This document shows positions 31,160 to 45,229 of a DNA stretch of 64,000 nt, piece by piece. The notes beneath the pieces are model-generated. The model was not told the origin of the DNA and searched no databases. It was given only the letters and a program-made list of their open reading frames with translations. This stretch comes from Pyrococcus horikoshii OT3 (GTDB taxonomy: Archaea; Methanobacteriota_B; Thermococci; Thermococcales; Thermococcaceae). Position 1 is the first letter of the stretch, and each line of letters begins with the position of its first letter. Location: the NCBI RefSeq assembly GCF_000011105.1, contig NC_000961.1, forward strand, positions 916,662-980,661, read 5' to 3'. The position numbers and the translations under genes are program-made.

Positions 31160-32460
31160 ATGACAGCTGAAGAGGAAATATACAATGATGTACAAATGAA
31201 TGGGATTATAGGACCTCACACTAAGATGCTTGGGCCGGTTGCAGATGGGGAAGGATAACATTTCTAACAGCTCCTGGGTGCTGGGGTCCAATGATAACAC
31301 CAACTATTAGAGGAGGACATGAGGTCAACTATCTCGTAGCGGTGGAAGGGGCAAAAGTTGGTGACGCCATAGCGATTAGGGTAGAGAGGATTAGAGTGCT
31401 TTCAAAGGCCGCATCATCGGGCGTCGACTCCCCCAGAGAAGGGAGCTTTGTTGGTGACCCTTACGTTGCGAAGAAGTGTCCAGTTTGTAATGAACCATGG
31501 CCCGAGTTTGAAGTGGTAGGAATTGGAGAAGACGCTATAAGGTGCAAAAAGTGTGGAGCCCCTGTGTCACCATTTAGGATGATAAATGGGTATACCATGG
31601 TTTTTGACCATGAAGGTGGCGTTGGAGTCACTGTTGACAAGAAGACGGCCGAAATGATAGCGAAAAATGCCTGGGAATGGCATGCACTACCTAAAAATTC
31701 AAAACAAGTCCCCATATTAATCTTCGCAAAAGCAGATATCGTTGGAGTTCCATCTAGAATTAGACCATTCTTAGGCCAGTTGGGAACAATACCTGCAGTT
31801 GATATCCCTGACTCGCACAATGCTGGAGATTTCGGATACTTCCTAATCAACGCTCCCCACCCCTATGCGATTTCCAAAGAGGATTATGAAACCAAGTTAA
31901 CCGATGGTCACTTGGACGTTGACTCCGTAAGGGAAGGAGCTATAGTCATAGCGCCAGTTAAAGTAGAAGGGGGAGGAGTTTACGCTGGAGATGCTCACGC
32001 AATGGAAGGAGATGGGGAAGTCGCTGGCCATACAACGGATGTAACGGCCGAGACAACTGTTACAGTTGAGGTTATAAAGGGCTTAAACCTAGAAGGGCCT
32101 ATTCTTTTACCTCCAGAGGAAGATCTACCACCCCTGGCCAAACCCTGGAGGAAAGATGAATGGGAAAAGGTTGAGAGGTTAGCAAAGAAGTTTGGAATTG
32201 AAGTTGAGCCTGTTGCTCCACTCCAAATAATTGGTTCTGGACCAACGATTAACGATGCTGCACTCAACGGGTTTAAGAGAGCGGCAAAGCTCTTTGGAAT
32301 GAGCGTTGAGGAGGTTAAGAATAGGGTCACCATTACCGGAGCTGTAGAGATTGGAAGATTGCCCGGAATAGTCCAAGTTTCCATGCAAGTTCCACTAAGG
32401 ATCCTTGAGAAGCTTGGGATATACGAGCTAGTAGTTAAGCACTATAACCTTCCATTTTAG
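31160..32460 (+). pseudogene. Acetamidase/formamidase-family gene with one-base frameshift near its start
   Basis: From ATG 31160 the frame reads MTAEEEIYNDVQMNGI and on to GPVADGEG, then hits TAA at 31256. The family sequence continues in another frame with GRITFLTAPGCWGPM and runs intact to TAG at 32460. One extra G in the GATGGGGAAGG run (31244-31254) would restore a 433-residue protein. Family marks are PDSHNAGDFGYFL, GDAHAMEGDGEVAGHTTD and a C-terminal EIGRLPGIVQVSMQVP. A CPVC...CKKC zinc-ribbon pair is inserted near the N-terminus. The enzymes hydrolyse short amides. A sequence error, true mutation or internal start at 31291 are all possible. Confidence 0.75.
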
Positions 32461-32474
32461 ATTAAGTGAAAAAA

Positions 32475-33638
32475 TCAAAGGGAGAGGTAGTGATAAGTCA
32501 GAAGAGAATGGATCGCTGCTCCCATCCACAAGATGTCCTCATCCACATTAAACTTTGGATGGTGGTGTGGGTAAATTATTCCCTTTTCTTCGTTTCTTAT
32601 TCCCAGGAATATGAACAGTCCTGGGGCTTTGGTTGTATAAAAGGCAAAATCTTCAGCTCCCATCGTTGGTTTAGGCTCCCTAATTTCGCCCAGAACCTTT
32701 AGCACATCCCTCGCAAAATTCGCCAGCTTTTCATTATTTATAGTTGGGGGTATATGCTCTATCGTTAGTTCAAACTTCCCCTCGCACCTCATCCCATTGG
32801 CAAAGTTTTCAGTAATCTCCTTCATTCTCCTTACTATATAATCCCTAACTTCCTCATCGAATGTCCTTATGGTTCCAAGTATCTCCGCGGATTCTGGAAT
32901 TACATTAAATGTCGTTCCAGCTTTTATCGAGGTAACGCTAAGAACCGCTGGTTGTAGTGGATCTACTTCCCTCGATATTATCTTCTGATAGGCATTCACT
33001 AAATCTACAGCTAAAGCTATTGGGTCTATCGAGAGGTGCGGTGCTGCTCCGTGACCTCCCTTCCCCTTTATCAAAACCCTAAATGCATCTGCAGACGCTA
33101 GTAGTGGCCCGCTCTTGATTCCTATGATTCCCGAAGGTAGCTCGGCCCATACGTGGATCCCAAAGATAGCATCTACATCATCCAAGTGCCCTTCTTCAAC
33201 TATCTTCTTTGCTCCAAGTCCTCCTTCCTCAGCAGGTTGGAATATTAATTTAACGGTTCCCTGCAACTCATCTTTCATCTCCGCTAATATCTTTGCTGCT
33301 CCTAGTAGCATTGCTGTGTGGGCGTCGTGACCACAAGCATGCATCTTCCCAGGAACCCTAGACTTATAAGGAACATCATTCTCCTCCTGAATAGGCAAAG
33401 CATCCATATCAGCCCTTAAAGCCACGGTTTTTCCGTCTTCTTTTCCTTTAAGGATACCTATAACCCCTGTTTTTGCAGTTCTGACAACTTCATATCCGAG
33501 CTTTTTTAATTCTTCCTCCACTATTTTAGAAGTCCTCTCTTCCTCATACTTCAGCTCTGGGTACATGTGGAAATCTCTCCTCTTCTCAACTATATACCCC
33601 TGCAACTCTTTTGCTCTTTTAATTATAAACTCATCCAT
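32475..33638 (-). CDS. M20-family amidohydrolase/carboxypeptidase
   Basis: This 387-residue zinc enzyme has a DAHTAM-containing metal motif (HACGHDAHTAMLLGA), an acidic PAEEGGLGAKK loop, a later GGHGAAPHLS segment and the final MGAEDFAFY. These are the marks of the M20D aminoacylase/carboxypeptidase group that removes N-acyl or N-terminal groups from amino acids. It follows the symporter by 13 bases on the same strand, which suggests that it acts on the imported compound. Confidence 0.93.
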   Translation of the reverse strand: MDEFIIKRAKELQGYIVEKRRDFHMYPELKYEEERTSKIVEEELKKLGYEVVRTAKTGVIGILKGKEDGKTVALRADMDALPIQEENDVPYKSRVPGKMHACGHDAHTAMLLGAAKILAEMKDELQGTVKLIFQPAEEGGLGAKKIVEEGHLDDVDAIFGIHVWAELPSGIIGIKSGPLLASADAFRVLIKGKGGHGAAPHLSIDPIALAVDLVNAYQKIISREVDPLQPAVLSVTSIKAGTTFNVIPESAEILGTIRTFDEEVRDYIVRRMKEITENFANGMRCEGKFELTIEHIPPTINNEKLANFARDVLKVLGEIREPKPTMGAEDFAFYTTKAPGLFIFLGIRNEEKGIIYPHHHPKFNVDEDILWMGAAIHSLLTYHYLSL

Positions 33639-33651
33639 TTTCCATCGCCCC

Positions 33652-35091
33652 CTACACGGAGACTGCTTCTTTAAACCTAGTGAAGAGCTCCTCCTCGGGC
33701 TTCGTTAAGTATGCTACTATCAAAGTTACTATTATGTTAACGAGTAGGCCCCACAAACCAAAGTGAATTCCGAGAGGGTTCTTCTTTAGAACGAGCCTTA
33801 GATATGCCACCGTAATTAGACCCGCTATTATCCCAGTTCCAGTGGCGTACTTGTTCATCCTCTTCCAGAACAATCCAAAGACCGCTCCTGGAAACATTTG
33901 TGTCATCCCTGCGTATGCCAGGAGAAGCAGGGAAACAAGCCTTCCTGGGCTGTAGAGTGCAAGTCCCATCGCAAGGAGTCCTAATAGTATTACAGAAATC
34001 CTGCTAACTAGGACTAGTTCCTTGTCACTTGCAGTTGGCTTTGCTATTGCATATAAGTTCTTTGAGAGCAGACCTGCAAGTGAGAGGAGGATTGCACTTG
34101 CAGTTGAAGCGGCCGCAGCAAATCCTGCTGCGCCAACTACTCCCAAAACCCAGGAGGGATAAGTTATCTCCACGGCTTTAAGTACGGCTTCGTCTGGAGC
34201 ACTTAGCTTTATTCCTAAGGCCGCAACCGTGAATCCAGCCAGTATAACGGGAATCATAAATATCGAATATAAGGGGAGTAGTACATAATTCCTCTTTAGG
34301 GTCTTTAGATCCCTTGCACCGTATATCGATGGATAAAGTTGCGGATACATGAAGAAGCCCAAACCGCTGAGGATTAGGGTTGAAACGTACCAGCTTATCC
34401 CGAGTGGCGGATGCAAGATTAGGTGATCTGGCTTTGTCTGGGCAAGGGTTTTAAATAATTCTCCAATTCCACCGAACTGCTTAAAGGGAATTGTAAAGAG
34501 GACTACCCAAGCCACTATGAACATCAACGTGGCCTGAAGTAAATTAGTCCAGGAAATTCCTCTTAATCCACTGGTGTAAACGTATATCATCATTATAATC
34601 ATTCCAATGACTATCCCGGCCTTGGGGGTAATACTCCCAAGGGAACCAACGTGAACTATGTAACCAAGTCCCTGAAGTTGAAGTTGCAGATATGGGATGT
34701 TAAAGATTATCCCTATCAGCGCCACTAAAACTGCTAAGGCCTTGCTATTGTACCTGACCTGGAAATAGTCTGCCTGAGTAACGCATCCAAAGGCCTTTCC
34801 CGCTTTCCAAACGTACCTAGCGTAGAAGTAACCGAATGAGTATGCTAGGGCCCCATATCCGATGGCATACATTATAGGCATTCCATAGGAATATGCCCAT
34901 CCTCCAGTCCCGAGGAAGGCGTATGCGCTGTAAATTTCTCCTGCCATTAGGACGTAAAGGAATATTAGACCAAGGGTTCTCCCCGATACCAAGTATCCTT
35001 CGAGCGTGAATTTCCTCTTTATCCCAGCCATAACACCTACGATCAAGCTGAGGAAAACCCAACCCAGAACGATTATTAAGGCACTACTCAA
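33652..35091 (-). CDS. Sodium/solute symporter (SSS family)
   Basis: The 479-residue membrane protein has about 13 hydrophobic segments, with SSS features such as YSAYAFLGTGGWAYSYG and AAGFAAAASTASAILLSLAGLLSKN. The longer open frame to 35127 is rejected, because GGAGGTG precedes the TTG at 35091 and the overlap with the upstream gene then falls to 8 bases. The substrate is unknown; proline, pantothenate and carboxylates are all transported by this family. The M20 neighbour points to a peptide or acylated amino acid. Confidence 0.9.
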   Translation of the reverse strand: MSSALIIVLGWVFLSLIVGVMAGIKRKFTLEGYLVSGRTLGLIFLYVLMAGEIYSAYAFLGTGGWAYSYGMPIMYAIGYGALAYSFGYFYARYVWKAGKAFGCVTQADYFQVRYNSKALAVLVALIGIIFNIPYLQLQLQGLGYIVHVGSLGSITPKAGIVIGMIIMMIYVYTSGLRGISWTNLLQATLMFIVAWVVLFTIPFKQFGGIGELFKTLAQTKPDHLILHPPLGISWYVSTLILSGLGFFMYPQLYPSIYGARDLKTLKRNYVLLPLYSIFMIPVILAGFTVAALGIKLSAPDEAVLKAVEITYPSWVLGVVGAAGFAAAASTASAILLSLAGLLSKNLYAIAKPTASDKELVLVSRISVILLGLLAMGLALYSPGRLVSLLLLAYAGMTQMFPGAVFGLFWKRMNKYATGTGIIAGLITVAYLRLVLKKNPLGIHFGLWGLLVNIIVTLIVAYLTKPEEELFTRFKEAVSV

Positions 35092-35308
35092 GGAGCCCAC
35101 CTCCAAGTTCCAGCTTATATGCTCCATAGAGGCAAAGGGAAGTGAAGATTAGCCAGATAGTATTCCAGAACATTAAAGGAGGCATTCCGAGGATTAGTGG
35201 GCCTGGCTTGTTTAGAAATGGTGATACTATAACGTAGGCTATCCAGGGTATAATTCCTAGTAGCATAGCCATTGAATATACTTTACTTTTCTCCATAAAG
35301 TTCGACAC
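35084..35308 (-). CDS. Small membrane protein, DUF3311-like, paired with the symporter
   Basis: The 74-residue protein has two hydrophobic segments and an LGMPPLMFWNTIWLIFTS stretch that matches the DUF3311 family. These small proteins are commonly encoded just before SSS symporters. The stop overlaps the symporter start by 8 bases. It is likely an accessory subunit. Confidence 0.8.
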   Translation of the reverse strand: MSNFMEKSKVYSMAMLLGIIPWIAYVIVSPFLNKPGPLILGMPPLMFWNTIWLIFTSLCLYGAYKLELGGGLLE

Positions 35309-35456: not shown

Positions 35457-35969
35457 TTAAAATTTAAGTTTCAAGGACTTGTACCAAGCCTTTGGACTCC
35501 CTATAGCGGTAAAGACCTCGTATTTCTCCACAATGGTCTTACTCCTTAGAAACCTATCTATGTGATATTTCAAGCTTTCTAAGTTGGATTCAAAGAATCT
35601 TAGCATCAAATCATATCCATTTCCTATATATTCAGTAACCTCGTATATCCTGGGATTCTCAACTGCTTCATTCACGAACTTTCTGATCTCCTCGGGTGTG
35701 GCATCCTTCGAAAATTTGACTAGAACATCTGCATAAGCCACGTCAGCAGCTCTTAGAAGGAGCAATCCTATCACCTGTAAGATACCTTCCCTTTGAAGCT
35801 TTAAGCGATGACGCCTGACGGTTGTTACCGAAACTCCCAGCCTTTCGGCAATCCTGCTATCGCTTATCCTGCCGTCTTCCCTAAGCATTTTATATATCAT
35901 TATGTCCAGATCGTCTAATTTTCCCTTAAACACCTTCTTAAGAACCGCGGTCTCTGGATCATCATTCAT
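35457..35969 (-). CDS. Lrp/AsnC-family regulator of the DUF917 cluster
   Basis: The 170-residue protein has a winged helix (LDDLDIMIYKMLREDGRISD starts it) and a RAM-like ligand-binding half. A longer open frame to 36038 is rejected, because GGGTGAGAG lies before the ATG at 35969. It follows the M29-like gene by 4 bases and appears to be the last gene of the cluster, where it could sense the substrate or product. Confidence 0.85.
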   Translation of the reverse strand: MNDDPETAVLKKVFKGKLDDLDIMIYKMLREDGRISDSRIAERLGVSVTTVRRHRLKLQREGILQVIGLLLLRAADVAYADVLVKFSKDATPEEIRKFVNEAVENPRIYEVTEYIGNGYDLMLRFFESNLESLKYHIDRFLRSKTIVEKYEVFTAIGSPKAWYKSLKLKF

Positions 35970-35973
35970 ACTC

Positions 35974-37026
35974 TCACCCTTTCTTAAGCTCTTTAGCAAG
36001 TTTTGCGAGCTCAGGAGGATATACGATATTCCCCTCATCCATTATTTGCACACCATCTATCCATACCGAAGAATTGAGGCATATCCCATCAGTATGAGAA
36101 GCCGCTGGAATTCCTCCAGGAATGTCTGGAACTAACCTTGGTCCTATGTTTCCAATTCCCCACTCTGTAGCTCCCCATACCCTTTCATCCTCAACTATAT
36201 TCCCAGTAAGCTTTGCTCCAGGATTGAAACCATATGAGATGTGAGCTAACTGATACATATTGGGATCGTTAAAGCCTTCAAGCCAACTGGAGAACTCCCT
36301 TGCTTCCCTCCCTCCTTCAATGTTAACTATTTTTCCCCTTTCAACCTCAAGTTTTATCGGTTCCCTTAAGAGCCCTATCGGGGGATAAACTGAACCGTCA
36401 AATACTATAACACCATTGATGCTCTCTAACTTAGGAGTCCAGCTTATCTGTCCTGGGAGCATTTCATAGGTTCCTTTAGGAACGTAACCGGAATGAACTA
36501 TCAATGGTCTCTCTGGATGATTTTCAAATTCAACATCAGTCCCTGCTGGTGTTGTAATCCTTACGTGTTTTCCCCTTTGAGTTATCTCAGCGATCATCTC
36601 TAAAAACTTGGAGAGCTTTTTCATGTCAACCTTACCTATCGTTCTTACCATCATATCGGGATTCATTCCCACTAAGCAAATGTACCGAATATTTTTGTTT
36701 TCCTTGATAACGGTATCAAAGACCGTAGAATAAAGCAACCATTGATAATTGAACTCTATCCAAACATCAACATTTTTTAATGCTCCTATTAGTGCTCTTT
36801 GAGGTAACATAGGGTCTGCGGCTTTTCCAACTCCTTCAGGGGTTGCTATCCACATGACGAGGGGTTTTGCTCCTACCTCAAACACAGCCCTCGCTGTGGC
36901 ATTAACGACTTCCTCGCTAGAAAGAGTATCAGCCGTTATGGCGACAACCTCATTAGACTGAACGTTTAGGATTTCACTCACCAACCTCTTGGCCGCATAA
37001 CCGAGTTCAAACTCATAGCTCCTCAT
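35974..37026 (-). CDS. M29-like metallopeptidase (NicX/AmpS superfamily), copy 2
   Basis: The 350-residue protein resembles the M29 aminopeptidase T group. It has an early EVVAITADTLSSEEVV, a central RITTPAGTDVEFE, and a late GFNPGAKLTGNIVEDERVWG with ASHTDGICLN, the probable metal-ligand region. The same superfamily holds the 2,5-dihydroxypyridine ring-opening enzyme NicX. It lies 37 bases after the OPT-type transporter gene and before the Lrp gene. The substrate is not known. Confidence 0.8.
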   Translation of the reverse strand: MRSYEFELGYAAKRLVSEILNVQSNEVVAITADTLSSEEVVNATARAVFEVGAKPLVMWIATPEGVGKAADPMLPQRALIGALKNVDVWIEFNYQWLLYSTVFDTVIKENKNIRYICLVGMNPDMMVRTIGKVDMKKLSKFLEMIAEITQRGKHVRITTPAGTDVEFENHPERPLIVHSGYVPKGTYEMLPGQISWTPKLESINGVIVFDGSVYPPIGLLREPIKLEVERGKIVNIEGGREAREFSSWLEGFNDPNMYQLAHISYGFNPGAKLTGNIVEDERVWGATEWGIGNIGPRLVPDIPGGIPAASHTDGICLNSSVWIDGVQIMDEGNIVYPPELAKLAKELKKG

Positions 37027-37063
37027 AATTCTTCACCTCCAAAAAAAGAGTAAGAGGAAGGGA

Positions 37064-38647
37064 TCACTTCTTACCCAACTTGAGGGTTGAAGTGAAGAAG
37101 CTAACCAACGTTGAACCTGCTATCAAACCTGCACCGAGGACATAGAGAATATTCTGACCTTCCTCCTTATACTTCTGCACTACGGCCCACCTTATAGCAA
37201 GGGCTACCAGTACAGTGATTCCCGCTATCGGGTAGTTTATGAGCAACCCTGTAGCGAACAATATTCCAAGTTGCCTGTCAGGGCCTCCTATAGCCTGCAC
37301 TATAGCTCCTGGGATCGCCCATAATAGGAGGTACTTAGCTATTTCAGGATTTGCCCCAGCTTTTATCGTCGCGACGTAGACTCTATCTACAGGTGGCACT
37401 AGATCTTGAGCAAGGTAAGTCTTGGCGAAAAGAGCTACCATGGTTGTTGCAACTATTAAACCTGTAATCTCAGCAAAGTACTGCTGTCTCCTCCCCTCCA
37501 TTTCAAATTTTATATCTTTTCCTTCTCCCCTAATTATCCACCCAGTCTTAAGGTCGTAACCCATATCAGCAAATGCCGGCCCTGTGGCCGCTGTGAATCC
37601 CACTAAAAGACCCAGGGCTGGAGCTGGAAATCTCATTAGGATCCCAAGGATGAGGAATATTAAGGCCGTTGCAAATGCCGGGAACCACCCAGCGTGCATT
37701 GCGGAGAGTCCAACGATTAGTTCAGAAACCAAGGCTGCTATCGCAGCGAAGAGGAACCACCAAATAAACATGCCAATGGACATTCCGGAATAAAGGCCAC
37801 CTAACAATGCTAAAATCAATGCCACGACAGTATAAAATGTAAATCCCTTTGTTAACGCTGACTTTATATCTTCTTCGCTTCTCGTAAATTCATAAGTAGC
37901 TTCCTCCTCTTTTAACGCTCTCCTCTTCTTTGATATTATTAGGATTATCTGAATCAAAGCCACCAAACCCGCTCCAATCATTATTCCATGGGGAACATAG
38001 TACTTGTTGACATCCGTTCCGAAGAGTTGCTTGGAGTACCCTCTAACTATCAAACCAATACCGAACATTGCTAGGGCCCACATATTTCCGATCCATGCAA
38101 CACCTGCTATATCTGCTGGTATTCCTAAATATCTAACTATACCTCCAGCTATCATTCCATAAAGTAAGAGAAGTGCTCTTTTTCCTTTTTTAGCGGCAGC
38201 TATTAAGGTTTCTGCGGTAGCAATTCCTGGAGGCCAGGGATTCTTTGCTGGGAATATTCTTGTATCGAAAAGCCAGTATATCATTGTCATATCGATTATC
38301 GCTGCTAAAGTAGCACCGATCCACATGGGAATTAAAAGATCTTGTCTACCTAAGAGCCAGGTAACACCAACAGGAAGAAAGATTGCATTTGCCGCACCAA
38401 ATGTAGCTCCTGAAATAGCCGTCTGAACTAAATTCTGCCTATTGAGATCTAGGAATGACTTTAATGCTTTCGCAGGTAATCTGGCAAGTAAGATAGCAAT
38501 TAATGCACCTATTATCGAGGTGTTCGTTGTAATTCCCAACCTTGTAATTAGCTCCAGACCGATAATGGAACCTAATATTGCCATTATCACGTTCAAAACA
38601 AATACACCAGGCTCAAAAGCTGAAGGATGTTTTCTTACTTTTTCCAT
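37064..38647 (-). CDS. OPT-family oligopeptide transporter-like protein
   Basis: The 527-residue membrane protein has about 12 or more hydrophobic segments and repeated Gly/Ala-rich helices, with the charged loops RGEGKDIKFEMEGRRQQY and EEEATYEFTRSEED. I place it in the OPT superfamily, which carries peptides or metal chelates with protons or sodium. It is shorter than eukaryotic OPTs. It is flanked by two M29-like enzymes on the same strand. Confidence 0.75.
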   Translation of the reverse strand: MEKVRKHPSAFEPGVFVLNVIMAILGSIIGLELITRLGITTNTSIIGALIAILLARLPAKALKSFLDLNRQNLVQTAISGATFGAANAIFLPVGVTWLLGRQDLLIPMWIGATLAAIIDMTMIYWLFDTRIFPAKNPWPPGIATAETLIAAAKKGKRALLLLYGMIAGGIVRYLGIPADIAGVAWIGNMWALAMFGIGLIVRGYSKQLFGTDVNKYYVPHGIMIGAGLVALIQIILIISKKRRALKEEEATYEFTRSEEDIKSALTKGFTFYTVVALILALLGGLYSGMSIGMFIWWFLFAAIAALVSELIVGLSAMHAGWFPAFATALIFLILGILMRFPAPALGLLVGFTAATGPAFADMGYDLKTGWIIRGEGKDIKFEMEGRRQQYFAEITGLIVATTMVALFAKTYLAQDLVPPVDRVYVATIKAGANPEIAKYLLLWAIPGAIVQAIGGPDRQLGILFATGLLINYPIAGITVLVALAIRWAVVQKYKEEGQNILYVLGAGLIAGSTLVSFFTSTLKLGKK

Positions 38648-38657
38648 CTAACCCACC

Positions 38658-39620
38658 TCAAATGACGAGATTCCCATCTTTAAACAGATATTTTCCATCA
38701 ATAAGAACAGTTGGCTCCTTAATTATCCCATCTAAGTGTACGGGAGCCTTAACTTTTCCTCCAAAATCGTAGTTACTTCCCAGGGCTATATGAACCGTTC
38801 CAAAGACCTTTTCATCTTCTAGTATGTTACCACTTATCCTAGCCTTTGGATTCGTCCCCACTCCAAATTCGGCAATGTTCCTAGCTTCTTTCCCATATCT
38901 AGACAATATTTCTCTTAGCTTTTCCGCTTCTTCACCTCCTCTAATATCTTCAGCGAATCCATCCTTGACTATGATCTCGATAGGTTCTTTAAGAACTCCA
39001 ATACCGGCCATCGAGCCATCTATAACAACCCTTCCATTTGCCGTCCCTTCTAGGGGAGCTATGTAAGCTTCGGCCCCAGGAAGATTTCCGCATTCTCCTG
39101 GATTCCTGTATATTCCAGTACTCCTCCTAGCTTTTCTTCCCTCGATTGAGAACTTTAAATCGGTTCCTAAAGGCGTTAAAATATGCACCTCCTTTCCTTT
39201 GTCAAGAACGTCAGCTATTTTATTGGTAAGCTCTAGCATTCCCTCGTAGTCAGCACTCATTGTCCGCACGAAGATTTCTCTGGTGATTCCAGGAAGGGTC
39301 GCAACCCTAGCTCCTCTCTCGCAGGCTTCCTTCTTTGCTAGCGTATGAGTTATAGATTTCGAAGTTGGGGCTATAACAACATCAGCTACTTTCATAGCCT
39401 CAGCTACAGGCTTTGGAGGCTCTTCCCCATGCATCTTTCTTGGCAGTATCTCAACGTATATCGCCTCAGCTCCAAGCTCCTTAGCCTTCATCCATAGATG
39501 ATATCCTATCTCTCGTTCGGGCTCATCGGCTATTACTAAAACCGTTTCTCCAGGTTTCACGCCCATACACTGTTTTAAGGCAGTTTCACACGCTTTATAT
39601 AGTTCTTTATCTATCCCCAT
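38658..39620 (-). CDS. M29-like metallopeptidase (NicX/AmpS superfamily), copy 1
   Basis: The 320-residue paralogue of the 350-residue protein shares HILTPLGTDLKFSIEG, the GTNPKARISGNILEDEKVFGTVHIALG block, and a late KAPVHLDGIIKEP with the HLDG signature. It differs enough to be a separate specificity. It starts 3 bases after the AroM-like stop and ends 10 bases before the OPT gene. Confidence 0.8.
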   Translation of the reverse strand: MGIDKELYKACETALKQCMGVKPGETVLVIADEPEREIGYHLWMKAKELGAEAIYVEILPRKMHGEEPPKPVAEAMKVADVVIAPTSKSITHTLAKKEACERGARVATLPGITREIFVRTMSADYEGMLELTNKIADVLDKGKEVHILTPLGTDLKFSIEGRKARRSTGIYRNPGECGNLPGAEAYIAPLEGTANGRVVIDGSMAGIGVLKEPIEIIVKDGFAEDIRGGEEAEKLREILSRYGKEARNIAEFGVGTNPKARISGNILEDEKVFGTVHIALGSNYDFGGKVKAPVHLDGIIKEPTVLIDGKYLFKDGNLVI

Positions 39621-39623
39621 AAT

Positions 39624-40277
39624 TCATTCCCCCAATTCCCCAATTACCCTAGCCATCAAAGTTCTAGGAAGAAGAACGGGTTTTCCTGTAACCTCTTTAA
39701 CTATCTCTTTTGACCTAGTTGAATAACCTATGCAGTCAAGAACTATAAGCTCAGAACTCGCTAGATCTTGAGCTTGTTTCCTTAGCTCTTCTTCGGTTCC
39801 AACGTATGGAGAAACGCTCCTCACTTGGACTTCCTTTACAACCTTCTTCCACTTTCTCTTGGCCATTTCTTTCTGTTTTGGATCCGGTACTAGAACTCCT
39901 AGCTTAGACACGTTCAGGGCTTCAACGGTTTTTAAAAGAAGGATTGAAGGTTCAATGAGTAGTTTCTTTGCCTTTAGTTCTGGGAATTCTCCCGTGCATA
40001 GAAGTCCTATTGCATCAACTTCCTTCTCGAGTTTATCAATGCACTCCTGGAGCTTCTTCACTATTTTATCCCTACTTAACTTAACTTGACTTCCATCCCT
40101 AAGCCTGCTGACTAGAACTTCCTCATCCTCTTTTGGAGCTAGTTCCTCAATTTCATCTCTGGTTAATTCATCCAAAGCTCCGCACTCAACAATTCCAACC
40201 CTCTCCATATAAGGTTTCATCTCCGGAACGACATCCATCCTTGGGGATTGACCTATCGTTATAAGGCCAACTTTCAT
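39624..40277 (-). CDS. AroM-family protein
   Basis: The 217-residue protein begins KVGLITIGQSPRMDVVPEM, a clear AroM hallmark, and has a mid-protein AIGLLCTGEFPELKAK. AroM proteins belong to the Asp/Glu racemase-like fold and have no firmly known reaction. It overlaps the DUF1177 stop by 4 bases, in the middle of the operon. Confidence 0.85.
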   Translation of the reverse strand: MKVGLITIGQSPRMDVVPEMKPYMERVGIVECGALDELTRDEIEELAPKEDEEVLVSRLRDGSQVKLSRDKIVKKLQECIDKLEKEVDAIGLLCTGEFPELKAKKLLIEPSILLLKTVEALNVSKLGVLVPDPKQKEMAKRKWKKVVKEVQVRSVSPYVGTEEELRKQAQDLASSELIVLDCIGYSTRSKEIVKEVTGKPVLLPRTLMARVIGELGE

Positions 40278-41212
40278 TTTCTCTGCCTCCCAAGCGTTTG
40301 AAGGTGGTTCATTGGGCCATAAAGCTCAATTAAGCGTTTAAACTCCTCTTCATCGTAGAACTTCACTTTTCCTCTACCAAATCCCTTTGCTACCTCAATG
40401 CAGAACCTCGCGGCCTCTTCAATATCCACGATATGGCTTGCCCCAGTTGCACATCCAGGAACAGGGACCTCGGCCGTTATGGCAACTCCTACAACTGGTG
40501 CATTTGTAGTTGTAGCAGGTTGCATGATGCTGTTGAGGTGATAAATGCCATTTCCATACGGGGTTATGTCCTGCATCGTTATCGGAACAACTGCAGGCAT
40601 CCTGCCAGTTACGTACTGCATTATGTCGAGAAGATCCTCGCTAACTCTGAGGATCCATCCTTCCTTCACCGTGGGAGTTATAGCGAAGCCTCTGATGTTT
40701 ATTATCCTGTTCCCCTTGGTAGTATCTACTGAGAGGATAGCATCCATGCTGGGATCAACTTCATACCTATTCATAGTGGCCATGTCTACTGGAGAACCCA
40801 TGAAGGGCACGGGATCATGGGGCTGGGTTGGAGCATTTGGACAGATGTGGGTTGCTATTATCACATCTCCATCCAAGATATCTCCATTTCTCCTCATGTC
40901 TGCAAGCTTTAAGGCCACAGCTATTGCCGTTATCGCTCCATCTGCATCTGATACTAGCCCAATCATTTCTGGCCTTGCCCCAATACCTCCAAGCCTTCCT
41001 ATTATTCCTAAAGTTGGAGCATCTCCTCCTGAGAGCTTACCGTTCTTTCCTGGGATAATTATCTTTATGAAGTCCGTAGAGCCCTTTTCTCCAGTTATAG
41101 TTTTTACTTCAACATTTTCAATTCCCCTATCCCTGAGGAATTTAGCTACCTTTTCTCCAGTAACGTAAGCACTGTCTAGGAGTTCATAAGCTTCAATAAC
41201 CTGTTTTAACAT
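40274..41212 (-). CDS. DUF1177 family protein
   Basis: The 312-residue protein contains GLVSDADGAITAIAVALKLADM, THICPNAPTQPHDPVPFMGSP and a late VPGCATGASHIVDIEEAARF. These match the uncharacterised DUF1177 family. His and Asp residues in THICPNAPTQPHD could bind a metal. GAGGTGG before the ATG at 41212 sets the start. It is found in other genomes beside DUF917 and AroM genes, as I recall. Confidence 0.8.
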   Translation of the reverse strand: MLKQVIEAYELLDSAYVTGEKVAKFLRDRGIENVEVKTITGEKGSTDFIKIIIPGKNGKLSGGDAPTLGIIGRLGGIGARPEMIGLVSDADGAITAIAVALKLADMRRNGDILDGDVIIATHICPNAPTQPHDPVPFMGSPVDMATMNRYEVDPSMDAILSVDTTKGNRIINIRGFAITPTVKEGWILRVSEDLLDIMQYVTGRMPAVVPITMQDITPYGNGIYHLNSIMQPATTTNAPVVGVAITAEVPVPGCATGASHIVDIEEAARFCIEVAKGFGRGKVKFYDEEEFKRLIELYGPMNHLQTLGRQRK

Positions 41213-41222
41213 TTTTACCACC

Positions 41223-42278
41223 TCATAAAATCTTCTTTCCAACTACCTCCTCAACCTGTTTCAAAACTTCAGGATCTTTAACCCCTGAACCGAGAAGTAA
41301 AAGATCTTTGGGAACCGTCGCTATTACTACCTTATCACCCTCTTTTACTTCCGCGGAAGTCATTGGTAAGCCCGTATTCTGATTGATTAGAACTATAAGG
41401 TCAGGAAACGTTGCATATCTCTTTCCACTTGAATCTTCCAGCGTCATGAACTCATTCCAAAACGTGATTTCATAAGTTTCCTTTCCCTTAATTATTACCC
41501 TTCCTATGTCAAATCCTCCCTTGGTTTCAAGCTTGACCTTTTCTATAACTCCATTATCAACGACTCTTCCTCCCCCAATTACCTTAAATATCTTCTCTAG
41601 CATAGCATCAACTTCGTTCTTGTGATCTAAGATTACCTTTCCAATCTCGATTGCTTGGGAGATAGCACCGACTGCTGCATTCTCCTTTACATAATCTGGA
41701 GTTACGGGGTTTCTAGTAACGGCCACTAATCCTCCAGCTTGAACTGCAGCTTCTCTCACAAGCTTAGCCGCTCTTTCCAGGGATCCCTTGACTATCACTT
41801 CAACATACCTTTCCCTGCTACCACCAACGGCTGTCTGGATCGAGACATACTTGGGGAGCTTGTGAAGCCCTAGAGCTCCCATGACTCCGGTAGGGTGGGC
41901 CCTTCCATCAGCAGGTGCATCTACAACGGGAATTCCAAGGATTGCAGATTGAATCCAACCATTTACCGTTGAGTAGCCTCCATTTTCTGAAGATATGATG
42001 CCACTTAGGGGGACTTTTGCAACATCCATGAAGAGTTCCATAGACTTTATTGCATGGGATGGGAGGAGGTACTTTTCTTTAGCCGCTGGAGCTCCAACCA
42101 TGGAAACAGTTGCTATGAACCCTTCCCTAATTTTATCCACACCCACTATCTCAACTTCACCGATCTCTACCGCAAGCTTTGCATGCTTCAGTCCAAGCTT
42201 TATATCACCTCCTCCTCCACCACCTAGGAATGCTCCTCCAAGGACCGCAGCTTCAGCGATCTTTTCATCTACCCTCAA
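41223..42278 (-). CDS. DUF917 family protein (hydantoinase/oxoprolinase-associated)
   Basis: The 351-residue protein has a Gly-rich start (AVLGGAFLGGGGGGD), then AKLAVEIGEVEIVG and VVDAPADGRAHPTGVMGAL, and a C-terminal DLIVLINQNTGLPMTSAEV. DUF917 proteins are linked with hydantoin and oxoproline utilisation. The start is TTG 42278, with GAGGTG 8 bases ahead, overlapping the racemase stop by 14 bases. The chemistry is unproven; amide or ring hydrolysis is an inference. Confidence 0.82.
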   Translation of the reverse strand: MRVDEKIAEAAVLGGAFLGGGGGGDIKLGLKHAKLAVEIGEVEIVGVDKIREGFIATVSMVGAPAAKEKYLLPSHAIKSMELFMDVAKVPLSGIISSENGGYSTVNGWIQSAILGIPVVDAPADGRAHPTGVMGALGLHKLPKYVSIQTAVGGSRERYVEVIVKGSLERAAKLVREAAVQAGGLVAVTRNPVTPDYVKENAAVGAISQAIEIGKVILDHKNEVDAMLEKIFKVIGGGRVVDNGVIEKVKLETKGGFDIGRVIIKGKETYEITFWNEFMTLEDSSGKRYATFPDLIVLINQNTGLPMTSAEVKEGDKVVIATVPKDLLLLGSGVKDPEVLKQVEEVVGKKIL

Positions 42279-42942
42279 ATCTTTTCACCTCTCTTCTCTT
42301 GAGCGCATGAAGGGCAACGGCCCCAGAAGCGATAACTGGATCGATAACAGGAATTCCAACTTCCTCTTCAAGAACTGGAGCAATTCCTATTGTAGACATC
42401 CCGGTACAACCTAGAGCTATAACCTCTACTCCCTTTTCTTTAAGCCTTTTTGCAGCGTTTATAACTTCTCTTCTCCCCCAATCCGTTAACAAATCTAGGG
42501 TATTTGAAACTCCACTCGGATGATCTTCGGCTATTAAATTATTCCCTAGAATACTCCTGATAACTTTAGGAGTCTCCTCTGTTAAGTTTAAGACTCCTAC
42601 TCTTCTTCCGTAAGCTAGTGCTAACGCTGAAACAGAAGATCCAGCGCCAATTACGGGAATCGAGAGTAATTTTCTAACTTTTTCAACGGCTGGATCTGCA
42701 GCACAACTTATTATAATAGCATCGACACCCTCCCTTTCAAACTCCTTAGCGAGCCTTATTATTTTGGGCTCGGCCTCTCTCTCGGTTTCTTCATTGTATA
42801 TCCCCTTAGGTTGATCTTCAATGCACCTGCTAACAACCTTTAACTCGGGAAATGCACTTTCAATTATTCTACCATGTAAGTTAAGGATCTCTTTATCCTC
42901 CAATGTTATTACTCTTATTAGTCCAATAGTGTATTTATCCAT
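42265..42942 (-). CDS. Asp/Glu/hydantoin racemase-family protein
   Basis: The 225-residue protein has the two family cysteines in IISCAADPAVEK and VIALGCTGMSTIG, in the positions of the catalytic Cys pair of Asp/Glu and hydantoin racemases. The ATG at 42942 is preferred to a GTG nine bases upstream, because AGGTGT lies between. It is the first gene of the eight-gene cluster. Confidence 0.87.
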   Translation of the reverse strand: MDKYTIGLIRVITLEDKEILNLHGRIIESAFPELKVVSRCIEDQPKGIYNEETEREAEPKIIRLAKEFEREGVDAIIISCAADPAVEKVRKLLSIPVIGAGSSVSALALAYGRRVGVLNLTEETPKVIRSILGNNLIAEDHPSGVSNTLDLLTDWGRREVINAAKRLKEKGVEVIALGCTGMSTIGIAPVLEEEVGIPVIDPVIASGAVALHALKRREVKRFEGR

Positions 42943-42969
42943 ACGATACACCTAAAAATTTGGGAGTAA

Positions 42970-43050
42970 AGTCCAGTATATATCCATTATTGAACTGTAT
43001 CGATAGCTTAATAAGTGCGAATTAGACTAATAATTTAAAAGTATAATTGC
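42970..43050. promoter_or_regulatory. Divergent promoter region between the DUF917 cluster and an Lrp gene
   Basis: On the minus strand GGATATATAC (plus 42975-42984) is a good TATA box about 35 bases before the racemase start. On the plus strand TTTAAAAGTATAA (about 43033-43045) can serve the Lrp gene at 43110. The divergent arrangement suggests that the regulator controls the cluster, but no clear operator palindrome was found. Confidence 0.5.
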
Positions 43051-43109
43051 TCAATGAACTAAAAATTAAGTGGGTAATCTCACGATCATGACAAATTTAG
43101 GTGTTGAAA

Positions 43110-43589
43110 ATGAAGAAAAGGAAACTATCAAAAAAGGATTGGGAAATTATAAAACTACTCAAAAAAGACGCAAGAATGAGCGATGCAGAGATAGGGAGAA
43201 GAATAGGTCTTTCCAAATCTGCCGTTAGATGGAGGAGGATAAATCTGCAAAAAAGAGGATATCTTCTAATTTCAGCATACTTAAGGTTCGATAAGCTTGG
43301 TTATACCTATGCGTTCGTTCTCGTGAAGATAAAGCCCGACACTCCTAGGAATGAAATTTTAAAGTTTAAGAAAGCGCTCATGGAAAACGAGCACACCTTC
43401 GAGATTTATGAAGTTCTTGGGGATTATAACGTTCTTATAGGTGTATTTGGTGAAGATGTATCTGAACTAAAAAGGAACATTCAAGAGCTGATAATAGGGC
43501 AAAAGTGCGTTCAAGAGTATAAAGTCCTCCTGGGCGCAAAGAGCCTAAAAGGGCTTGAGGTACCATTTTGGGATGCACTTGAGGATTAG
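43110..43589 (+). CDS. Lrp/AsnC-family regulator, divergent from the DUF917 cluster
   Basis: The 159-residue protein has a winged helix ([20 protein letters not shown] starts it) and a RAM-like half ending QEYKVLLGAKSLKGLEVPFW. It is distinct from the Lrp gene at the far end of the cluster. ATG 43110 follows a GTG-containing ribosome site by 6 bases. Divergence from the racemase gene suggests local control. Confidence 0.85.
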   Translation: MKKRKLSKKDWEIIKLLKKDARMSDAEIGRRIGLSKSAVRWRRINLQKRGYLLISAYLRFDKLGYTYAFVLVKIKPDTPRNEILKFKKALMENEHTFEIYEVLGDYNVLIGVFGEDVSELKRNIQELIIGQKCVQEYKVLLGAKSLKGLEVPFWDALED

Positions 43590-43620: not shown

Positions 43621-44031
43621 ATGAAGTTCGAAGCCTTCAAGATCGTTCCGGTCGGTTATATAAGAAAGGAGAAAAATGTTTTCATCGAGATCCTTCCAGA
43701 GTTCAGAGAGGGTATGGAGGGACTAAGAGAGGGAGACTGGATAAAGCTCATATTATGGTTCCACAAAAGTGACACTCCAGAGCTTAGGAGAATCCTTAAG
43801 GTTCATCCCCATGGGAATCCAGAGAACCCCTTAACTGGAGTCTTTGCTACCAGATCTCCCTTTAGGCCAAATCCTTATACTGTGAAGGTGCATAAAATTG
43901 AAGGTAACAGGATATACATAGACTGGATAGATGCTGAGGATGGAACGCCAGTTTCCGACATAAAGATATTTCCTGAGCGCTATGACTGCCCAAAGGAGAA
44001 TTATCAGTCGACTTCCAGACTGAAATCTTGA
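43621..44031 (+). CDS. trmO: TrmO-like tRNA t6A methyltransferase family protein (UPF0066)
   Basis: The 136-residue protein has PVGYIRKEKN at its start and the GVFATRSPFRPNPY signature of UPF0066/TsaA proteins. In bacteria the family N6-methylates t6A37 in tRNA. The archaeal activity is inferred. Its 3' end overlaps the convergent ferritin-like gene by 28 bases. Confidence 0.85.
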   Translation: MKFEAFKIVPVGYIRKEKNVFIEILPEFREGMEGLREGDWIKLILWFHKSDTPELRRILKVHPHGNPENPLTGVFATRSPFRPNPYTVKVHKIEGNRIYIDWIDAEDGTPVSDIKIFPERYDCPKENYQSTSRLKS

Positions 44032-44480
44032 TAGTCCATCCATATTCCAGTTTTTGCAACAGAATCATATTGAGCCTTTAAAAGCTCGTAATGGGATTCT
44101 TCAACCTTTGCAAGTTCTCTTAAGGTTTTTCTAACGTCCTCATCTCTAATCTCTTCTGCAAGCTTCTCGTAGAACTCCCAAGTTGCTTTTTCTTGCTCCA
44201 TTCCAATCTCCACGGCCTTTATTTCACTCAGCTCTCCTTCAACCTTGGGGGTAAGTTTCTTGACGATCTCCTCATCTATCCTGGGGCGTTCGCAGGATTT
44301 GAGGAGCTCATTTATGAGCTTCTCTTCAAAAATCCTCCAGTGTTCTGCTTCCTCACTTGCCAGGAAAAGGAACATCTTCCTGGCTTTCTCTTCCTTAGCG
44401 ATCCTGGCCATCTCTAGGTAAAACTTAAGCTCCGTCTTTTCCACTTCAAGTGCTAAAGCTAAGGCATCGACAACCTTCAT
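44004..44480 (-). CDS. Ferritin-like/rubrerythrin-type diiron protein
   Basis: The 158-residue four-helix protein contains ExxH-type motifs: LASEEAEHWRIFEE and LAKVEESHYELLKA, plus KTELKFYLEMARI and EQEKATWEFYEK. These four helices supply the Glu/His ligands of a diiron site. No rubredoxin domain is present. It may help against peroxide or store iron. GGGGTG sets the start at 44480. Confidence 0.82.
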   Translation of the reverse strand: MKVVDALALALEVEKTELKFYLEMARIAKEEKARKMFLFLASEEAEHWRIFEEKLINELLKSCERPRIDEEIVKKLTPKVEGELSEIKAVEIGMEQEKATWEFYEKLAEEIRDEDVRKTLRELAKVEESHYELLKAQYDSVAKTGIWMDYQDFSLEVD

Positions 44481-45229
44481 TTTTAACACCCCATAAAGTT
44501 ATGTTTATGTCATTCATAAGCTGATCGTTAGACTTTGCTTGTATCTCTCCAGGTACCTGGTTATATACTCGTACCACAAGAGTAGCATTCCATTTTCAGA
44601 GGCATAGCTTGAAAGCTTGCTAACTCGGCTTTGTCTAGACTCTCAAATTTAAATAGCTCGTCTTTTTATCTCATCAACAGGAGAAGGCAATGACAAAGGA
44701 GCAGGGGTTACTAATTTTAATTTTTATTGATCCTTCTCCTTGAGCAAGCCATAGTTTTATTTAAGAATTTGACAGAATATTCTCCCCGCTAGGAGGATTT
44801 TCCTCTGGAAGAGTGGTAATAAGTCCTATATTTCAATATAACTTGCTCCACTCTCCCACAACCCTTTAAAGGTCTTATCAACATTCTTCATCTTTAGACT
44901 CCTTAAGCTTTCCAATGTACCAGAGCTCGTAGAACTTTTGAATGTGGCATGCATCGATTAACTCGAGGGTCTTATCAGCTAAGTATATAGTTATCAGCTA
45001 AGTATATAGTTTTTAGACTTATCGAGATTAAAGATTTATGATTTAGTCTAATAATAATCTATCTACTTAACAGCTCTCCAATGACATACCGTTAGGGGCA
45101 AGGCTACCCGGGGTTATAAGTGATTTAACATCTCCAAAACAAACATAACATCTGAAAAATGTCAAAAACGGTATAGAGATAGTCAAATCTTGGCTCAAAC
45201 TTGCTAAGCCCAAGGAAGGAGGTGATTAA
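44481..45229. other. Gene-poor 749-base interval with coding debris
   Basis: No intact gene was found. On the minus strand around 44860-44980, a readable stretch YLADKTLELIDACHIQKFYE runs on for about 35 codons before a stop and could be the remains of a small gene. A 19-base tandem duplication (44972-44990 and 44991-45009) interrupts it. Just before the next gene, the plus strand reads LKNVKNGIEIVKSWLKLAK and ends at a TAA that abuts the next ATG, which may be the tail of another lost gene. Confidence 0.45.
44972..45009. repeat. 19-base perfect tandem duplication
   Basis: Two identical copies of TTATCAGCTAAGTATATAG lie head to tail at 44972-44990 and 44991-45009. The duplication is not a multiple of three and shifts any reading frame across it. 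Confidence 0.9.

Follow-up and report, generated by a model that had tools for sequence, protein, structure and literature searches.

What do the eight closely packed genes do that lie on one strand of the Pyrococcus horikoshii OT3 genome, in a stretch of 64,000 nucleotides (contig NC_000961.1, positions 916,662 to 980,661; here called the window)? Read in order, the compact run encodes a racemase-like protein (Race), a DUF917 protein, a DUF1177 protein, an AroM-family protein, a metallo-aminopeptidase-like protein (M29a), an OPT-family importer, a second M29-like protein (M29b) and an Lrp-type regulator (Lrp1). Genes for a DUF3311 protein, an SSS-family symporter and an M20 amidohydrolase follow. 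A sequence-only reading had placed all these genes and families, including the downstream symporter with its small subunit, the M20 gene and an acetamidase/formamidase facing them, and profile matches and coordinates agree with it throughout. What we find is a genuine catabolic module, conserved over a wide range and of uncharacterised function, which a 2024 study of cyclodipeptide oxidases (CDOs; Nat Commun 2024, PMC11055893) had in part anticipated. As to its role, we give about even chances to a catabolic operon by which small peptide-like amides are imported and hydrolysed to amino acids, cyclic or D-configured dipeptide derivatives being the likely substrates. Support is good for the conserved unit and for a peptide-like amide as the type of compound; which substrate exactly is used, and what each enzyme does to it, we infer.

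Within the Thermococcaceae, DUF1177 is present in nine of 94 genomes, and full-strength AroM matches occur in exactly these nine (chance about 9e-13), while the weaker matches to the AroM model in this family are Race proteins. The OPT protein of the cluster, a weak-scoring and distinct subtype, is found in six of the nine and, in this family, at DUF1177 loci only. DUF917 of any type is present in eight of the nine, as compared to 11 of the 85 other genomes (p=5e-6). All co-occurrence p-values for this family ignore the kinship of the genomes. The gene order is unchanged in five genomes (G005, G007, G010, G046 and G093). In a further one (G077), the cluster OPT and M29b are missing and an M20 gene stands after M29a, and G073 is reduced to DUF1177-AroM-M20. 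The genes around the cluster vary from genome to genome, and the cluster is thus sporadic in the family.

With a single genome scanned per species, we obtained at least 578 relatives of DUF1177 and inspected the 80 best-scoring ones as loci (L022-L101); this sample leans to close relatives, and many of its contigs are metagenome bins. The 80 hosts belong to the Bathyarchaeota, other archaea, Bacillota, Chloroflexota, Synergistota, Spirochaetota, Actinomycetota, Bipolaricaulota and others. AroM lies directly downstream of DUF1177 in 31 of the 80 loci, and DUF917 directly upstream in 29. Where at least 4 kb were available on both sides (50 loci), the same-strand companions are AroM (38), DUF917 (25), OPT (20), Race (20), M29a (18), M20 (12) and M29b (7). 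In Bacillota and Synergistota the order OPT-Race-DUF917-DUF1177-AroM-M29a is found. All six of these genes stand together in 21 loci from Bacillota, Synergistota, Thermococcales and others, the window included; 20 of them are independent, since L022 is probably from the same genome as L017. Over the 21 loci, the distance matrices of the genes are all correlated with one another (rho 0.37-0.73; 0 of 500 permutations), which, on sequence distances, shows co-inheritance that is not separated from species phylogeny. Chance is a poor explanation for this arrangement: the order repeats in other genera and phyla, and the distributions of AroM and DUF1177 in the Thermococcaceae coincide. This is in good agreement with the proposal of the sequence-only reading that the genes form one conserved uptake-plus-hydrolysis unit, for which it had suggested a comparison of gene neighbourhoods; in this comparison the genes do co-occur elsewhere.

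The DUF1177-AroM pair is the most constant part and the core of the unit; DUF917, the importer and the final hydrolase are interchangeable or absent. The importer slot is taken by OPT in many loci, by a Dpp-type ABC transporter in about 20 and by NCS1 in L083 and L099; Dpp/Opp ABC genes fill it as well. As final hydrolase we observe M29, M20 (DapE/ArgE or AbgB type), a Xaa-Pro-dipeptidase-like amidohydrolase, a CN-hydrolase or PepE, and as regulator Lrp in archaea and PucR (17 loci) or IclR in bacteria. L083 combines NCS1 and a CN-hydrolase; L085, L090, L092 and L094 are Dpp-DUF1177-M20 clusters. The haloarchaeon Salinigranum shows the order Dpp-DUF917-DUF1177-AroM-aminopeptidase-racemase-aspartoacylase family-Lrp, and on a Planococcus plasmid DUF1177 stands beside HyuA, DUF917, NCS1, HyuA and HyuB. 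DUF917, which the sequence-only reading had counted as part of the set, is indeed found in many clusters but is not universal: some genomes have DUF1177-AroM with an importer, a dipeptidase and a racemase only. Such a short version, IclR-OPT-DUF1177-AroM-PepE-racemase, occurs in Sodalis and on a conjugative-type Klebsiella plasmid, and the system appears to be mobile in enterobacteria. On the Klebsiella plasmid (L125, NZ_CP057460, 174946-180353) it is flanked by transposase genes.

Some further observations concern these loci. The contig L098 (bacterium GBS-1), labelled bacterial, carries the archaeal gene order and a DUF1177 85% identical to that of the window, which means either a transfer between domains or misbinning. 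An unnamed family without a Pfam match, C5, is encoded between the DUF1177, AroM and M29a genes at L084:10945-11769 and at nine other bacterial loci. Its members share a conserved E-C...C..H..C tail, and a structure model weakly resembles the ribose-1,5-bisphosphate isomerase/eIF2B fold. The neighbouring amidohydrolase in L033 turned out to be NagA and is unrelated.

Which activities can be expected from the individual proteins? Of all proteins in the set, DUF1177 shows the strongest conservation, with a mean identity of 69% across the six-gene loci versus 48-54% for the others; the window protein is 62-93% identical to its homologues at the other full-set loci. In the literature searched, its function is not described, DUF1177 being no more than mentioned in a single paper and PF06675 in none. 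Comparison of its profile with PDB sequences gave nothing significant. The AlphaFold2 model (pLDDT 86.8, pTM 0.90) gave 203 Foldseek matches in the PDB at E<=0.001, and nearly all of the 50 listed are M17, M28 or DapE enzymes. The best E-value is 2e-8, and the TM score of about 0.5 places the match at superfamily level. On this model, DUF1177 is predicted to adopt the M17/M28/M20 zinc-exopeptidase fold in a diverged form. Comparison of hidden Markov models gave a match probability of 15% only for the M20 families, with a weak alignment of the SDxDG turn of DUF1177 to the M20 SD motif, and the fold assignment thus rests on the structure model. Nearly or fully invariant in 89 sequences are D99, D101, H132, C134, H142, D173, E194, H235 and E283.

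Race matches the PDB entry 2eq5, a "228aa long hypothetical hydantoin racemase", across all 228 residues, and its C83 and C182 are invariant in 39 homologues from DUF1177 loci. AroM, related to Race by hhalign (probability 96.5), has C94 and C182 invariant in 62 homologues. By these residues, both proteins show the two-cysteine pattern of the racemases of the PF01177 superfamily that work independently of pyridoxal phosphate; AroM is therewith racemase-like, and its racemase activity is predicted. AroM of Escherichia coli K-12 (L124:2429-3106) is 28% identical to the cluster AroM and has Ser at the position of the first invariant Cys, and thus may not be a racemase. A search for DUF1177 in E. 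coli genomes at the DNA level gave no match.

M29a scores 54.2 bits against the Pfam M29 model (gathering threshold 27 bits) with E251, E268, E270, H277, H295 and D297 invariant; it belongs by this test to the M29 aminopeptidases, and peptidase activity is predicted from sequence. M29b is homologous to M29a in profile comparison (probability 100) and to the 2,5-dihydroxypyridine dioxygenase NicX (1.8e-16), and NicX (7cn3) is the nearest solved structure to both. The iron ligands of NicX are H265, S302, H318 and D320 (PMC7910607). The last two, a His and an Asp, are common to M29a and M29b. At two other columns of the metal site, Glu and His are swapped between the two proteins in all sequences compared: M29a has E251, at the column of NicX H265, and H277, where M29b has H262 and E288.

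The sequence-only reading had pointed out that M29-like folds include a ring-opening enzyme, and one could accordingly imagine that an aromatic nitrogen heterocycle is opened oxidatively or hydrolytically by a NicX-like M29b. Apart from the structural neighbourhood, such a function would find support in M29b H262, H311 and D313, which align with three of the four iron ligands. The fourth, S302, aligns with Gly290 and is conserved neither in M29a nor in M29b, so that by the ligand test neither protein is NicX. Moreover, NicX needs O2 while the Thermococcales are anaerobes, and no other gene of pyridine catabolism was recognised. We regard a NicX-type ring opener as very improbable, and this pathway as the least probable of those considered here.

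DUF917 is homologous over its full length to the thiohydantoin and S-methyl thiohydantoin desulfurases, and by sequence it is assigned to their superfamily, but it stays below both equivalog cut-offs of the NCBIfam models NF058529 and NF058532 (scores of 290.2 vs 440 and 257.9 vs 450 bits). E98, D120, R126, N275, E276 and D293 are invariant in 47 homologues, and a remote PDB relative is 2o3i. The two desulfurase matches could suggest that the cluster serves the catabolism of ergothioneine-type thiohydantoins. With scores that far under the cut-offs, with neither ergothionase nor thiourocanate hydratase nor any other remainder of that pathway recognised at the cluster, and with importers of peptide type, we hold this to be very improbable.

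Cyclodipeptide oxidase genes provide a link to systems that have been noticed before. In L011 and L018, genes for a nitroreductase (CDOA, PF00881) and a DUF6092 protein (CDOB, PF19585) stand downstream of M29b, and CDO genes are also present in L015 and L016. Altogether they are linked to five Thermococcales loci, including the linked region L115 (G007:396000-408000), where the DUF1177 operon has another module, Dpp-Race-DUF917-Race-M29-CDOA-CDOB, behind it. CDOB is found in six of the nine DUF1177 genomes vs seven of the 85 others (p=1.4e-4). Five genomes without DUF1177 have CDO modules that include Dpp genes, joined by Race, DUF917 and M29 as far as the stretch considered reveals them. The Dpp-Race-DUF917-Race-M29-CDOA-CDOB module, a sister system that lacks DUF1177 and AroM, exists in several Thermococcales (L115, L118, L119, L120). 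Directly behind CDOB of the G005 cluster lies a CRISPR-like array (L018:15330-16244) with 14 repeats of CTTTCAATTCTCTTCTAGTCTTATTGGAAC at a spacing of about 66 bases.

In PMC11055893, PF01177, DUF917, AroM and OPT genes are reported as enriched around CDO genes, Dpp genes are reported there too, CDOs are described from Thermococcus, Blautia and Clostridium, and hydantoin/allantoin-like or peptide substrates are put forward for the CDO clusters as a proposal only. The clusters without cyclodipeptide synthase (CDPS) described there resemble ours in their PF01177 racemase, DUF917, AroM, OPT/Dpp transporters and peptidases, and occur in the same kinds of genome. They differ in that the main text of that paper does not mention DUF1177, the most conserved protein here, and in that P. 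horikoshii has no CDOB; with CDOA and CDOB in or beside the cluster as the mark of a CDO cluster, the P. horikoshii cluster is not one. The claim of an undescribed system hence stands in part: the system is uncharacterised in the literature searched, while the company of PF01177, DUF917, AroM and OPT around CDO genes was already reported. New here are the predicted DUF1177 fold without the canonical H-x-D and Glu-Glu motifs, the putative catalytic Cys pairs in AroM and Race, and the Glu-His swap between the aligned M29a and M29b sequences.

For related clusters, the CDO paper also offers, in place of catabolism, that a secondary metabolite resembling a diketopiperazine or hydantoin is synthesised or tailored. 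No CDPS or nonribosomal peptide synthetase was recognised in the neighbourhoods examined, and importers, peptidases and regulators of nutrient type (Lrp, IclR, PucR) predominate there; a biosynthetic role is quite improbable for our clusters.

How would a catabolic operon for peptide-like amides work? Judging from the families, the OPT protein, perhaps together with the SSS symporter, would take up the substrate. Race and AroM, being of the cofactor-independent racemase type, may change the configuration at the alpha-carbon, and DUF917 would handle rings of the hydantoin or diketopiperazine type where such substrates are used. Amide bonds would be cut by DUF1177, with its presumably remodelled zinc-exopeptidase fold, and by M29a and M29b, and the M20 enzyme would finish the linear product. 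The operon is probably controlled via Lrp. A peptide-like substrate is suggested by the importer slot, with OPT or Dpp/Opp ABC transporters, and by the hydrolase slot, with M29, M20, PepE or Xaa-Pro-dipeptidase-like proteins. Ring chemistry is suggested by the superfamily of DUF917, the linked CDOA/CDOB genes, HyuA/HyuB with NCS1, and NCS1 with a CN-hydrolase. The likeliest substrates would be cyclic or D-configured dipeptide derivatives such as diketopiperazines and hydantoin-like rings; high temperature favours their formation from peptides.

Part of the same evidence can be read as a salvage of linear dipeptides with D-, iso- or damaged residues, where no ring is opened, the racemases would bring residues back to the L form, and peptidase activity would be the role of DUF1177, M29 and M20 alike. 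The minimal clusters, IclR-OPT-DUF1177-AroM-PepE-racemase or Dpp-DUF1177-M20, the M29-peptidase-like ligand set of M29a and the predicted exopeptidase fold of DUF1177 argue for it. The DUF917, CDO, HyuA/HyuB and NCS1 companions, however, are not easily accounted for if ring substrates play no part, and the characterised racemases of the PF01177 superfamily mostly use free amino acids or hydantoin-like rings, which also speaks against linear dipeptides. We consider this salvage possible, if somewhat unlikely.

Several observations weigh against the operon for peptide-like amides as outlined above. The enterobacterial clusters, without DUF917 and with PepE, fit linear aspartyl dipeptides. In seven Bathyarchaeota loci (L026, L028, L031, L034, L055, L062, L073), DUF1177 stands without AroM in a different but fixed context, with a small protein (c8), an M24-like peptidase and others. 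Of the canonical ligands of the di-zinc M17/M28/M20 exopeptidases (H-x-D, Asp, Glu-Glu, Asp, His), the H-x-D and Glu-Glu motifs are absent from DUF1177, which has its own invariant residues instead; its hydrolase activity therefore stays a prediction from the model. Profile searches found no CDOB (PF19585) in the P. horikoshii genome, and hydantoinase B (PF02538) is absent as well, dihydropyrimidinase-type hydantoinases not having been searched. Our cluster shares with hydantoin utilisation operons the racemase family, an M20 or CN-hydrolase finisher at some loci, and HyuA/HyuB with NCS1 on the Planococcus plasmid; it differs in the missing hydantoinase B and in OPT as importer, and the classical hydantoin operon is not known to contain DUF1177, AroM or M29. 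The stepwise ring opening envisaged by the sequence-only reading thus has its hints in the linked CDO, HyuA/HyuB and NCS1 genes but, given the ligand gap of M29b and a genome with neither hydantoinase B nor CDO, is a conjecture rivalled by the use of linear D- or isoaspartyl dipeptides.

A bolder version of the ring-opening pathway, which we put forward tentatively and deem unlikely, takes DUF1177-AroM as the core of an unrecognised pathway across domains. The racemase-like protein and an enzyme of zinc-exopeptidase fold with a new active site would jointly act as ring openers on cyclic dipeptides or on cyclic amides akin to them; DUF917, M29a/b and the optional CDO would be accessories, and hyperthermophiles would thereby recover diketopiperazines formed by heat.

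From a biological point of view, the module links the uncharacterised DUF1177, DUF917-like, AroM and M29-like proteins and an unnamed bacterial family to one pathway in many phyla, with a range that extends to Blautia of the gut and to a conjugative plasmid of Klebsiella. Once the substrate is solved, many genes could be annotated at once and a clue to the function of E. coli AroM would be at hand; it could also throw light on the way in which cyclic or racemised peptides are recycled by anaerobes. The system is open to ordinary genetics in Haloferax volcanii, which carries DUF1177, DUF917 and AroM.

The layout at the P. horikoshii locus is given in Table 1. With the probable starts of DUF1177 and Lrp1, the gaps from Race to Lrp1 amount to -14, 10, -4, 3, 10, 37 and 4 bases; further on, they are 148 (Lrp1-DUF3311), -44 (DUF3311-SSS) and 13 bases (SSS-M20).

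Table 1. Genes and control region of the cluster and its flanks; positions refer to the window.
Feature	Position	Strand	Evidence and remarks
Acetamidase/formamidase (FmdA_AmdA)	31291..32460	+	profile match; convergent
M20 amidohydrolase	32475..33638	-	NCBIfam carboxypeptidase CpsA equivalog, 586 bits vs cut-off 500
SSS-family sodium:solute symporter	33652..35127	-	PF00474
DUF3311, small subunit of symporter	35084..35308	-	PF11755 2.6e-10
Lrp1, Lrp/AsnC-type regulator	35457..36038	-	real start probably 35969 (M24)
M29b, NicX/M29-like	35974..37026	-	below Pfam M29 cut-off (18.9 vs 27 bits); homology via profile comparison
OPT-family importer	37064..38647	-	PF03169 3e-25
M29a, M29-type metallo-aminopeptidase-like	38658..39620	-	PF02073 1.4e-14
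AroM-family, racemase-like protein	39624..40277	-	PF07302 1e-79; invariant C94, C182
DUF1177	40274..41242	-	PF06675 6e-145; probable real start M11 at 41212
DUF917/S-Me-THD-like protein	41223..42278	-	S-Me-THD N/C domains 9e-19/4e-30
Race, Asp/Glu/hydantoin-racemase family	42265..42951	-	PF01177 1.1e-31; first gene of run; C83, C182 catalytic-type
Race/Lrp2 shared intergenic control region	42952..43100	.	partly conserved among relatives
Lrp2, divergent Lrp/AsnC-type regulator	43101..43589	+	faces away from Race

Lrp2 stands opposite Race in most Thermococcales copies. In the intergenic regions between both genes, visual inspection shows recurrent GTTCA-WT elements among relatives. As a candidate for a shared Lrp operator upstream of Race the pattern was rejected: the window contains no excess of it (11 matches vs 10.8 expected), and an operator is therefore not claimed. 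Beyond Lrp2 lie genes for a TrmO-like protein (43621-44031) and a protein of the rubrerythrin family (44004-44489), for which no link to the cluster was seen. No acetamidase/formamidase was found in the neighbourhoods of related clusters, and its place next to the P. horikoshii cluster is thus probably incidental. The M20 protein, a CpsA equivalog, is likely the terminal hydrolase. An SSS symporter likewise stands behind the cluster in L015, after an Lrp1-like gene.

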